Shown: in pieces, positions 19,961-24,374 of the stretch | Layout: each line of letters begins with the position of its first letter | How positions within the stretch are numbered: position 1 is the first letter of the stretch | Assembly (NCBI GenBank): GCA_001314905.1 | Contig: LJZT01000005.1 | Location: forward strand, 1 to 64,000 | DNA: 64,000 nucleotides | Source: Phormidium sp. OSCR | GTDB lineage: Bacteria; Cyanobacteriota; Cyanobacteriia; Cyanobacteriales; Geitlerinemataceae | Direction: 5' to 3' | Program-made: the position numbers and the translations under genes | Notes under the pieces: model-generated | Told to the model about the DNA's origin: nothing | The model's input: only the letters and a program-made list of their open reading frames with translations | The model's database searches: none

Positions 19961-20986
19961 ATGACTTCCTCAATTCCCAGTTTTGGCGATCGCGCCCACA
20001 GTGCCATCGAAACTCATGTTAAGCATATCCTCAAGCATGAAGAGGAGGTGTTGGGCGATCGCGATCCTGAAGCCCTCCATCAGATGCGGGTGGGGATGCG
20101 ACGTTTACGCAGTGACACAGTCGGGTTCGCCGCAGCGGTGATTCTCCCGAAACCGGCCCAAAATTCCAAAATCGGCAAGATGGCCCGAACCCTCGGGGTA
20201 TTGCGGGATATTGATGTGATGCAGGCCTTGCTAGACGAGGATCTCTTGCCCAATTGTCCCCAAAAGGAACGCGATCGCCTACAACCGGCCCTGAAAACCC
20301 TCGCCAAACGTCGCAAAACGGCCCGCAAGGATGCTGAAGCGTTACTCCTGGGTAAGTCGTACAACAAGTTCAAAGGGGCGATTCAGGAATGGTTACAACA
20401 TCCTCAATACAGCCCCTACGCCACCCTACCCATTGCAACGGTTTTGGCGGATGTCTTACTCCCGAGTGTGAGTCGTCTCCTCCTAGAACCTGGGTGGTGG
20501 GTGGGTTTGTCTGCTGAGACATCTGCTGAGACATCTCCTGAAGCATCTCCTGAAGCATCTTCTGAGACATCTTCTGAGACATCTCCTGAGACATCTCCCC
20601 AAATTAGCCGTGAGGAAGTGGAGGACATACTGCTACAACAGGGCAAGGATCTCCATGAATTGCGTAAACAAACCAAGCGTGTTCGCTATCTCATGACGAT
20701 CTTCGCGGATCTCTATAGCCCCACCTATCAAGCCTATCTGGCAGACATGAAGGAGTTGCAAGAAATCTTGGGACATCTGCAAGATAGCTATGTTATGGGA
20801 GAATTTCTCAGTGAGGCGTTAAACAAAGATTTTGCGAAAGTCGCCCCGGAGTTAGCCCAACAACTTCGAGAAACCCGCTATCAGAACTGGTTGCGTTGGC
20901 AAGGTCTACAACGTCGCTATCTCTCGCCGCCGATTCGCCAAGTGTTCCGTTCTGAAGTCCTCAACGGCTACCAAGCCCAGAGTTAA
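19961..20986 (+). CDS. CHAD domain protein with a tetrapeptide-repeat insertion
   Basis: CHAD domains are helical, histidine-rich folds that bind inorganic polyphosphate. In this 341-residue protein the halves are clear: HEEEVLGDRDPEALHQMRVGMRRLRSD near the start with the conserved histidines and arginines, and DLHELRKQTKRVRYLMTIF later. Between them, residues about 183-212 are a low-complexity spacer of [AE]TS[APS]E-type tetrapeptides encoded by a 12-base tandem repeat. The repeat does not interrupt a conserved motif, so the fold can stay intact. It is divergent from the HAD gene across 33 bases. The neighbouring caspase-fold gene has a similar 12-base repeat. Confidence 0.9.
   Translation: MTSSIPSFGDRAHSAIETHVKHILKHEEEVLGDRDPEALHQMRVGMRRLRSDTVGFAAAVILPKPAQNSKIGKMARTLGVLRDIDVMQALLDEDLLPNCPQKERDRLQPALKTLAKRRKTARKDAEALLLGKSYNKFKGAIQEWLQHPQYSPYATLPIATVLADVLLPSVSRLLLEPGWWVGLSAETSAETSPEASPEASSETSSETSPETSPQISREEVEDILLQQGKDLHELRKQTKRVRYLMTIFADLYSPTYQAYLADMKELQEILGHLQDSYVMGEFLSEALNKDFAKVAPELAQQLRETRYQNWLRWQGLQRRYLSPPIRQVFRSEVLNGYQAQS
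20509..20597 (+). repeat. 12-base tandem repeat inside the CHAD gene
   Basis: About seven imperfect copies of a 12-base unit such as ACATCTCCTGAG, with ACA/GCA and TCT/CCT/GCT variants, encode SAET/SPEA/SSET tetrapeptides. Being a multiple of three, copy number can change without breaking the frame. Confidence 0.85.
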
Positions 20987-21057: not shown

Positions 21058-22377
21058 ATGGGCAACCTGGTTTTGCTTGCTGTCGGCCTCGACCATTATG
21101 ACTATCTTCAGCCCTTGCGGTTTGCCGTGCAAGATGCCCAGGGGTTGGCGAATCATCTGTTGCAAGCGGGTTTCTTGCGGCCCAAAGATCTGGCCCTGCT
21201 GACGGAACAATCGCCGCCAACGGAAGATGGGGTCGAGACACACCCCAAGGCGGCGACGTTAGGGCGATTGCTGAGTGAGTGGCTTCCTCGTCATGTGGGG
21301 AATGAGGATCTGCTGTGGCTATTTTTTAGTGGTTATGGTCTCAATCATCAAGGCCAGGACTATTTTCTGTTGCGAGATAGTGATCCCCAACGACTCCCGC
21401 AAACGGCGGTTGCGGCCCAAACGGTGTTTGAGCATCTCGCGGCCCTCGATAGCCAGCATATTACCCTATTTTTGGATATCCGCCGCCCCACAGCCCCCGA
21501 GTTGGGACAAGCGATTGGATCGCAGGTGGTTCGTTTGGCTGAGTCGGCGGGGATTCCGGTGTTGTTGAGTTGTCAGTTGGATCAGCGATCGCGCGAGTCT
21601 CGGGATTTACGGGGTGGCCTGTTTACGACGGCGTTGATTGGGGCGTTACGCTATCACCGCGATCGCACATTGGCGGATGTAGAGGCGGAGTTACGTCAGG
21701 TTTTGCCCCCCCTCGCCGATCAATGTCGCCAACCGCCTCAAACGCCACTCCTGATTGCCTCGACGGGCCAGCAAGGGCGATCGCTGTTTGTTAACGAGAT
21801 TCCAGAGTCCACTCCTGAAGCCACTCCTGAAGCCACTCCTGAAGCCACTCCTGACCCCACTCCTGACCCCACTCCTGACCCCACTCCTGACCCCACTCCT
21901 GACCCCAAACCCGCCTCAACCGCCGCCACGGGGAGTCTCTGGCAATTGATTGGAGTGTTGGGGGCGATCGCCTCGTTTTTAATGTTAGGGGTGTTTAGTT
22001 CCCCAGGAGACCCGGATATTGAGGAGTCCAACCCTATAGCAGAAACGCGCTCAGAGCCACCAGAATCGTCCATAGACCCCAGTGAAAGCCAAAAAATACT
22101 TGAACAAGCCCAAGCCCAGATTGACCCCGGACAAGCCTCATCGTACTGGCGGGCGATCGAACAAGTCCGACAAATTGACCCCAACCAACCCCTGTATACT
22201 GAGGCTCAAGAGGCGATCGCCCGTTGGAGTCAAGATATTCTCGATTTAGCCCAACAGCGGGCCGAAAATGGACAGATTCAATTTGCCATCGACGCAGCCC
22301 GCCTAATTCCCGAAACCAGTCCCCTCCACGACACCGCCCAACAACGAATTGCCACCTGGGAAAACCAACGCCCCTAA
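21058..22377 (+). CDS. Caspase-fold (C14/orthocaspase-like) protein lacking the catalytic dyad
   Basis: Residues 1-240 have the caspase-hemoglobinase fold order: LVLLAVGLDHYDYLQPLRFAVQDAQ, DLLWLFFSGYG, ITLFLDIRRP and LLSCQLDQRSRE…GGLFTTAL. In active members the two central motifs read FSGHG and DxCHSG. Here the histidine is Tyr (about residue 93) and the cysteine position is Ile (about 141), so it cannot be a cysteine protease by the usual mechanism. Residues 250-282 are TPEA/TPDP repeats, followed by one membrane helix (LWQLIGVLGAIASFLMLGV) and a roughly 120-residue tail of helices resembling TPR-like repeats. It is probably a scaffold or sensor anchored in a membrane. Orthocaspase homologues with Tyr in the His position are known in cyanobacteria. 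Confidence 0.82.
   Translation: MGNLVLLAVGLDHYDYLQPLRFAVQDAQGLANHLLQAGFLRPKDLALLTEQSPPTEDGVETHPKAATLGRLLSEWLPRHVGNEDLLWLFFSGYGLNHQGQDYFLLRDSDPQRLPQTAVAAQTVFEHLAALDSQHITLFLDIRRPTAPELGQAIGSQVVRLAESAGIPVLLSCQLDQRSRESRDLRGGLFTTALIGALRYHRDRTLADVEAELRQVLPPLADQCRQPPQTPLLIASTGQQGRSLFVNEIPESTPEATPEATPEATPDPTPDPTPDPTPDPTPDPKPASTAATGSLWQLIGVLGAIASFLMLGVFSSPGDPDIEESNPIAETRSEPPESSIDPSESQKILEQAQAQIDPGQASSYWRAIEQVRQIDPNQPLYTEAQEAIARWSQDILDLAQQRAENGQIQFAIDAARLIPETSPLHDTAQQRIATWENQRP
21808..21906 (+). repeat. 12-base tandem repeat (TPEA/TPDP) inside the caspase-fold gene
   Basis: Three to four copies of ACTCCTGAAGCC are followed by five of ACTCCTGACCCC. They encode (TPEA)n(TPDP)n just before the membrane helix. 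Near-perfect copies suggest recent slippage; unit length keeps the reading frame. Confidence 0.9.
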
Positions 22378-22428: not shown

Positions 22429-23658
22429 ATGTTATCTGTTGCCGACGCTGAACGTTTAATAGTTGACGCGGTTCATCCCCTCACCGACACCGAGGGCGTT
22501 CGCCTCCCCGACGCCACGGGGCGGATTCTGGCCACCGCCGTTCGCAGTCAATTAGACTTTCCCCATTGGGATAACTCCGCGATGGATGGCTATGCGGTTC
22601 GCTTTGACGATGTAGCCGCCGCCTCCGGGCAAAGCCCCGTTTGTTTAGACGTGATCGAAAACATCGCCGCCGGAACTCCCCCCCAGAAAACCGTAAAATC
22701 GGGGCAAACGGCCCGCATCTTCACCGGGGCGATGCTTCCGTCGGGGGCGGATACGATTGTGATGCAGGAAAATACGCGACGAGACGGCGATCGCATCGAG
22801 ATCTTACAACCTCCCAAAGCCTTGGGGGAGTTTGTCCGTCATCGCGGCCGCTTTTATCAAGCCGGAACCCCCCTTCTCAATCCAGGGATTCGCCTACAAG
22901 CGGCGGAGATTGCGGTGTTGGCGGCGGCCCAATGTAATGTGGTTAAAGTGATTCGTAAACCCCGCGTGGCGATTCTCTCGACGGGGAGTGAGTTAGTCGC
23001 CCCAGATCAACCTCTGAAACCGGGACAAATTGTTGATTCTAATCAATACGCATTAGCGGCCTTTCTGCATCAATTCGGTATTGAAGCCCTACGGTTGGGA
23101 ATTGTCGCCGATACCCCGCCAAGCCTACGTCAAACCATCAAGGAAGCCTTGCAATGGGCGGATGTGGTCATCTCGACGGGAGGGGTTTCTGTGGGCGATT
23201 ATGATTATATTGAGGGGATTTTGGAGGAATTGGGGGGGGATATTCAGGTGCGATCGGTGGCAATTAAGCCGGGAAAACCGTTGACGATGGCGAGTTTTGC
23301 TAAGTTGCGATCGCTCTATTTTGGCTTACCGGGAAATCCAGTTTCAGCCTTAGTCACGGCTTGGCGATTTGTGCAACCGGCCTTACTCAAACTCTCGGGT
23401 TTATCTCAAGGTTGGCAGCCGCAATTTGTGGAGGCGACAACGGCGTTGGACTTACCCGCCGCCCCCAGCCGAGAAACCTATATTTGGGGACAAGTTGCGA
23501 TTCGTGACGGACATTTTCATTTTAATTGTGCTGGGGGCAGTTTTAGTTCTGGGAATTTGGTTAATTTGGCCCAAACGAATGCCTGTGCGGTGATTCCGGT
23601 GGGCAGTTCTGGGATTGCGGCAGGAGAACGGCTGTCGGTGCTTCTATTACAATCTTGA
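22429..23658 (+). CDS. moeA: Molybdopterin molybdotransferase MoeA
   Basis: MoeA inserts molybdate into adenylylated molybdopterin, the last step of Moco synthesis, needed for nitrate reductase among others. The 409-residue protein has the family order: N-terminal lid with FPHWDNSAMDGYAVR, the beta domain with RIFTGAMLPSGADTIVMQE, the MoaB-like domain with ILSTGSELV and STGGVSVGDYDYI, and the C-terminal LFGLPGNPVSALV-type motif (here YFGLPGNPVSALVTAW). All catalytic acidic residues of the MoaB-like part appear present. Its 5' leader consists wholly of heptamer repeats. Confidence 0.95.
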   Translation: MLSVADAERLIVDAVHPLTDTEGVRLPDATGRILATAVRSQLDFPHWDNSAMDGYAVRFDDVAAASGQSPVCLDVIENIAAGTPPQKTVKSGQTARIFTGAMLPSGADTIVMQENTRRDGDRIEILQPPKALGEFVRHRGRFYQAGTPLLNPGIRLQAAEIAVLAAAQCNVVKVIRKPRVAILSTGSELVAPDQPLKPGQIVDSNQYALAAFLHQFGIEALRLGIVADTPPSLRQTIKEALQWADVVISTGGVSVGDYDYIEGILEELGGDIQVRSVAIKPGKPLTMASFAKLRSLYFGLPGNPVSALVTAWRFVQPALLKLSGLSQGWQPQFVEATTALDLPAAPSRETYIWGQVAIRDGHFHFNCAGGSFSSGNLVNLAQTNACAVIPVGSSGIAAGERLSVLLLQS

Positions 23659-23802: not shown

Positions 23803-24048
23803 ATGAAGAACAAGGTTGAAGATATCTACAGTGAGATTATTTCTAGTTTACCTCCAAAAGAACGGTTGCAGTTAGCAACTCTCATTCTAAATGGACTAGC
23901 GAAACAACAAATACGTCGTGAGATAAATTTTGTTGATGATGTTGATGATAGTGATGTCTGGACCCAGGAGGATCAAGACGACTTAGCTCTATTTGCATTC
24001 CAACATGGTGTTGCTTATTTTTCACAAGAGGAGGATGAAACGGAGTGA
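23803..24048 (+). CDS. Putative antitoxin of a MazF/PemK-type module
   Basis: An 81-residue acidic protein. The N-terminal helices (KVEDIYSEIISSLPPKERLQLATLILNGLA) resemble the short helical antitoxins that pair with cyanobacterial MazF-type toxins; the second half is very acidic (DDVDDSDVWTQEDQDDL), suiting a toxin-masking tail. Its TGA overlaps the GTG start of the toxin gene. The segment 23660-24050 is visibly richer in A and T than the flanking genes, which suits horizontal acquisition. There is no recognisable AbrB or ribbon-helix-helix DNA-binding motif, so autoregulation is uncertain. Confidence 0.75.
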   Translation: MKNKVEDIYSEIISSLPPKERLQLATLILNGLAKQQIRREINFVDDVDDSDVWTQEDQDDLALFAFQHGVAYFSQEEDETE

Positions 24049-24374
24049 GTGTTAATCCGGGTGATATCGTGACTGTTGATTTTCCTGGAGTTACAGGAAT
24101 TAAACGCCGTCCGGCTGTTGTTCTATCGTCGGCGACGTATCATGCCAACCGCCCGGATGTCATTATTGGACTCATCACATCCCAGAGAAAACGATTGGGA
24201 GTCACGGACTATGTCCTTCAAGACTGGCAAGCCGCAGGTTTGCGGGTTGCTTCTGCCTTTCGCAGCTTTATCGTTACCTTGCCCCCTTCCGCAAACCTAG
24301 TTCGGATTGGACATCTCTCTGAACGAGACTGGCAAGGGATTCGGGACTGTATTAACCTGGCGTTAGAGCGTTAA
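24045..24374 (+). CDS. MazF/PemK-type toxin (endoribonuclease)
   Basis: A 109-residue protein starting at GTG 24045. The SH3-like barrel features of MazF/PemK are present: VNPGDIVTVDFPGVTGIKRRPAVVLSS at the N-terminus, IIGLITSQ in the middle, and LRVASAFRSFIVTLP with the active-site Ser/Thr region. MazF toxins cut mRNA at short sequence motifs; the paired antitoxin keeps them off. The overlap with the antitoxin gene ensures coupled synthesis. Cut site cannot be predicted from this sequence. Confidence 0.88.
   Translation: MSVNPGDIVTVDFPGVTGIKRRPAVVLSSATYHANRPDVIIGLITSQRKRLGVTDYVLQDWQAAGLRVASAFRSFIVTLPPSANLVRIGHLSERDWQGIRDCINLALER

Follow-up and report, generated by a model that had tools for sequence, protein, structure and literature searches.

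The gene at positions 21058-22377 of the window, that is, of the whole 64,000-nucleotide stretch of Phormidium sp. OSCR DNA analysed here (all features given below lie on the forward strand), is a real open reading frame. Its 439-residue product, read from an ATG start, classifies by its sequence as a membrane-anchored pseudo-orthocaspase of the YN clade, in which a Tyr-Arg pair stands in place of the His-Cys dyad and the Asn of the clade's Cys site has become Arg. The model we propose, and consider probable, is that this dead orthocaspase is a tethered, non-catalytic scaffold or relay that would take part in stress or envelope signalling. The part of the model that can be read in the sequence comprises a caspase fold, the replacement of the dyad by Tyr93 and Arg142, a predicted membrane helix, a TPR-like tail and purifying selection. 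The caspase domain, presumably cytoplasmic, would bind a protein or a peptide without cutting it, and the bound partner would perhaps be basic, since both S1-pocket Asp residues are retained in the window protein. The membrane helix would hold the caspase domain at the membrane, and the tail, lying across or beside the membrane, would bind a second protein. The whole protein would then serve signalling and not proteolysis, a view that is based on the Tyr found throughout, on a Cys site drifting between Asn, Arg, Ser, Lys and Asp (Cys in L006, an ortholog from a congener) and on the lack of a conserved His-Cys pair.

The caspase-like (p20) domain covers residues 1-235 (21058-21762). The Pfam Peptidase_C14 profile (PF00656) matches residues 7-228 with an E-value of 8.2e-11 and 42.5 bits for a cut-off of 21.4, which places the protein in the caspase-like superfamily, while the NCBIfam matches are all sub-threshold, caspase_w_EACC1 reaching 42 bits vs the 140 needed. 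The AlphaFold2 model, computed with 46 aligned sequences as input, gives most p20 blocks a pLDDT above 90 and contains a helix at residues 294-313 and five helices at residues 341-435 (about 88-98). A single-sequence search of solved structures returned weak matches (E 0.11), and structure comparison was used instead: with Foldseek, the best PDB matches of the p20 model are the MALT1 paracaspase (E 4e-11) and metacaspases (to about 1e-8). The model and these matches support a caspase-hemoglobinase fold, in agreement with the first-pass annotation, which had called the fold intact. The matched proteins (PDB 7qp1, 4f6p, 3v4o) resemble the window protein in fold but differ in being active His-Cys enzymes, at about 10-17% identity. 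Among phage records, a single 27% match was found, so that nothing points to a phage origin.

The motifs FSGYG and LDIRRP are present as that annotation quoted them, and both dyad residues are indeed lost. Tyr93 (21334-21336) occupies the position of the catalytic His and, when D140-I141-R142-R143-P144 is aligned on DxCHSG in the 46-row alignment, I141 falls on the x and Arg142 (21481-21483) on the catalytic Cys, so that the His-Cys pair of active orthocaspases is missing. The Ile earlier assigned to the Cys position was therefore a one-residue misreading, and the further departure claimed there is in truth the Tyr-Arg state, already present on published cyanobacterial lists (PMC8283722, PMC7889975, PMC7475262). 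In the alignment the His site is Tyr in 46 of 46 rows and the Cys site is Asn in 40, Arg in three and Asp, Ser and Lys in one each. In a larger set of 81 homologs (80 named loci and the window), Tyr is found in all 81, a count that is partly selected because the genome contigs were searched with patterns, one of which contained FSGY; the dyads are Y-N in 72, Y-R in four, Y-S in two, Y-K in two and Y-D in one. The search of 39 genomes with the whole protein again gave Tyr at the His site, with the sole exception of L024, where His is kept and paired with Asn. The Cys site in this set is Arg in six of the seven genus members and Cys in the other (L006), Asp in L008, Ser in L010 and L011 and otherwise Asn; L027, L028 and L030 fall outside the clade and are orthocaspases of the ordinary His-Cys kind. 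The search for an alternative His-Cys pair, suggested by the first reading, revealed none that is conserved: no His or Cys column of the 46 rows is invariant or 90% conserved, the commonest being C172 (38/46, Ser in the other eight), and no full-architecture protein that was read combines His with Cys.

The two residues that align with the S1 pocket of metacaspases, Asp26 (21133-21135, also aligned to metacaspase-1) and Asp140 of the DxC motif (21475-21477), are invariant across the 46 rows. In farther relatives of unchanged layout, the His site becomes Cys, Val or His and Asp26 becomes Asn or Phe. L126-L128, L131, L133, L134, L138 and L144 share this layout and have lost more of the active site, their His site now holding Cys or Val. 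L126-L128, from a single family of the order, keep the architecture but lack Asp26 and thus one or both of the S1-pocket Asp residues, so that the binding of a peptide in S1 is not a general requirement.

The literal Tyr-Asn dyad is missing in the window protein and Asn fills the Cys site in 72 of the 81 homologs; membership of the YN clade follows from the tree, where the protein is nested among YN-clade proteins. In this maximum-likelihood tree (IQ-TREE) it groups with Phormidium willei, then with the other genus members (100/100), Baaleninema (Y-D; 98/87), Geitlerinema BBD (Y-N; 100/100), L049 and L074 (99/98) and the rest of the clade, the fork uniting the whole clade having a support of 92/88. 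The His-Cys and Tyr-Ser paralogs of the same genome fall outside. Searching the 39 related genomes with the protein brought up relatives in every other genome of the genus (67-93% identity) and more distant ones order-wide, with one ortholog in each of the seven genomes of the genus. The kind of protein is an ordinary one, being one lineage's version of a published family with a known but rare dyad. Tyr-for-His orthocaspases were rightly given by the first-pass annotation as known, since their clade has been in the literature since 2019 (PMC6426788); the count in PMC8283722 includes 37 pseudo-orthocaspases that carry membrane helices. The YN proteins described (Klemencic et al. 2019, PMC6426788; Bhattacharjee and Mishra 2020, PMC7475262; a 2021 survey, PMC8283722) share with ours the Tyr at the His site, a non-Cys residue at the Cys site, a conserved Trp a few positions ahead of the Tyr, the p20 domain and a filamentous cyanobacterial host; they differ by Asn instead of Arg at the Cys site and by two tail units instead of one.

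The YN proteins have been stated to be restricted to nitrogen-fixing multicellular cyanobacteria. Across 196 genomes of the order, in which the clade profile scores fall into two separate groups and the clade was called at an E-value of 1e-80 or better, the clade is present in 110. This restriction is not upheld, because nifD is missing from 65 of these 110 genomes (present in 45); in seven genomes that lack it, the Y-N dyad was read directly (G014, G015, G021, G023, G026, G032 and G033). Conversely, 23 genomes have nifD without the clade, and the association between the two gives a Fisher p of 0.049 for 196 genomes that are not independent. The window genome itself carries nifD.

The caspase domain is followed by a TPEA/TPDP low-complexity stalk, encoded by a 12-bp tandem array (21809-21907; 8.2 copies, 97% matches), by the predicted membrane helix at residues 294-313 (21937-21996) and by a tail of five helices at residues 341-435 (22078-22362). 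These three parts were named by the earlier reading, but they were not gained by this gene: a membrane helix is predicted after the caspase domain in 79 of the 79 homologs that extend past it, so that the helix and the tail are the standard architecture of the clade. The tail unit of about 95 residues is present once in the window genus and twice in most relatives. Modelled alone it is confident (pLDDT 87); the proteins that Foldseek ranks highest are mostly TPR proteins, none of them reaching significance (best E 0.027, TM about 0.42); Pfam TPR profiles match neither the window protein nor L051. The tail can accordingly be described as TPR-like on the basis of the model, not as a proven TPR. 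The caspase domain would be cytoplasmic, judging from the missing signal peptide and the folded N-terminal domain; the Lys plus Arg counts flanking the helix across the clade are even (28 vs 30), and positive-inside counting favours neither orientation.

Other membrane proteins encoded by these genomes bear the tail as well, and in ten genomes from three families (G028, G031, G055, G057, G095, G111, G127, G142, G159 and G179) a strong tail match (E <1e-45) occurs without the clade caspase domain; the tail is thus also met alone with a membrane helix. Three of these loci were read as tail open reading frames without p20 (L035 in G028, L036 in G031 and L139 in G159), and a search for p20 remnants at two of the three found none. 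Such loci, together with active-site positions that drift freely within the clade, would be expected if the tail and helix were the functional parts and the caspase domain a dispensable or vestigial passenger. We regard this explanation as rather unlikely, since the caspase domain keeps its invariant residues outside the dyad and its dN/dS (Nei-Gojobori) is 0.16-0.25 within the genus. The same calculation, which the first reading had proposed for the p20 domain, gives 0.10-0.19 for the tail within the genus and, in the comparison with Baaleninema where dS is saturated, 0.23 for the caspase domain and 0.27 for the tail. The stalk lies above both (0.32-0.81). These ratios indicate that the caspase domain and the tail are under purifying selection.

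The neighbourhood offers a candidate partner for the tail. In 33 of the 80 loci the upstream neighbour is divergently oriented and encodes a small protein that begins like a signal peptide (L053, L064, L069, L084, L089 and others have it directly upstream). Of 112 clade genomes, 41 have this small secreted protein next to the clade gene, head-to-head in all 41, a figure that is partly selected for adjacency, the profile having been built from adjacent copies. It has no Pfam or NCBIfam match above cut-off. A tentative extension of our model, which we hold to be doubtful, is that the clade supplies one of the two halves of a so far undescribed signalling unit in the membrane of filamentous cyanobacteria, in which the dead caspase would be cytoplasmic and connected across the membrane to the TPR-like tail, the tail would meet the head-to-head secreted protein, and some lineages would have lost or lack the caspase and retain the membrane helix and tail. 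The head-to-head link is not directly applicable to the window genome, because its relative of the secreted protein sits on another contig (G000:C120; L123:1964-2776), unlinked to the caspase gene. The genes that do surround the latter are a CHAD-domain gene (19961-20986), 71 bp upstream and retained with an upstream HAD-like gene in near relatives, and moeA downstream (22429-23658), retained within the genus; neither is known to have a functional link with the caspase gene. The CHAD gene also carries an in-frame 12-bp repeat of the ETSPE type (20510-20598) resembling the stalk of the caspase gene, and a PemK/MazF-like toxin gene (24045-24374), with an overlapping antitoxin-like open reading frame ahead of it, lies farther downstream (23803-24374).

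A dead caspase domain could also act on its active homologs, by pairing with His-Cys orthocaspases or by hiding their substrates in the manner of cFLIP and caspase-8. Possible partners exist, as at least three proteins of the genome (L038, L041 and L042) are orthocaspases with a dyad of the His-Cys type and another (L040) is a YS pseudo-orthocaspase. This tally covers the loci whose dyads were read, L039 not among them, and comes from a PF00656 scan that omitted the window's own gene and so gives too low a number of divergent members. The retained S1 Asp residues are in keeping with such a role. On the other hand, these proteins are distant in the tree and are not neighbours, and the S1 Asp residues are gone in some clade relatives, so that we find this inhibitory function unlikely. 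An altered chemistry, with a working site formed by Tyr93 or by the Y-C pair of one congener, finds some support in the Tyr invariant in the main alignment and in the LDICRP motif of L006 (genome G002), and is nevertheless highly improbable, since a Cys site that may be Asn, Arg, Ser, Lys, Asp or Cys is incompatible with any single chemistry and Val, Cys or His replaces the Tyr in some clade relatives. Finally, a decaying gene heading for loss, as both missing catalytic residues and an expandable repeat in the stalk might suggest, is hardly credible given the intact frame, the ortholog in each of the seven genus genomes, the purifying selection and the order-wide clade. The proposal of the first-pass annotation that the protein is a pseudoenzyme and not a gene in decay is thus borne out by the frame, by 7/7 genus genomes and about 110/196 genomes, by the dN/dS ratios and by the want of another conserved His-Cys pair. 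Its suggestion that the protein serves as a sensor or a scaffold is plausible.

The literature offers a single functional hint, from SyOC (sll0148) of Synechocystis PCC 6803, the pseudo-orthocaspase for which a knock-out phenotype is described: its deletion raises H2O2 tolerance (PMC7889975). SyOC is a different but related protein whose His site likewise holds Tyr, with a Y-G dyad and a unicellular host. TbMC4 (TbMCA4) of Trypanosoma brucei is also a caspase homolog that has lost catalysis and is cited as having a biological role (PMC6426788, PMC8283722); it is a eukaryotic metacaspase with a Y-S dyad.

In conclusion, the single gene adds little, since Tyr-at-His pseudo-orthocaspases, the Y-R dyad and the membrane helices have all been published. 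It is at the level of the family that the observations may matter: a membrane helix and a helical, TPR-like tail are predicted as a shared layout where the describing paper found no identifiable C-terminal domain in the YN group (PMC6426788), and the published link with nitrogen fixation fails in 196 genomes. Furthermore, the secreted neighbour and the caspase-less tails provide concrete partners and constructs with which the function of a dead prokaryotic caspase may be probed.
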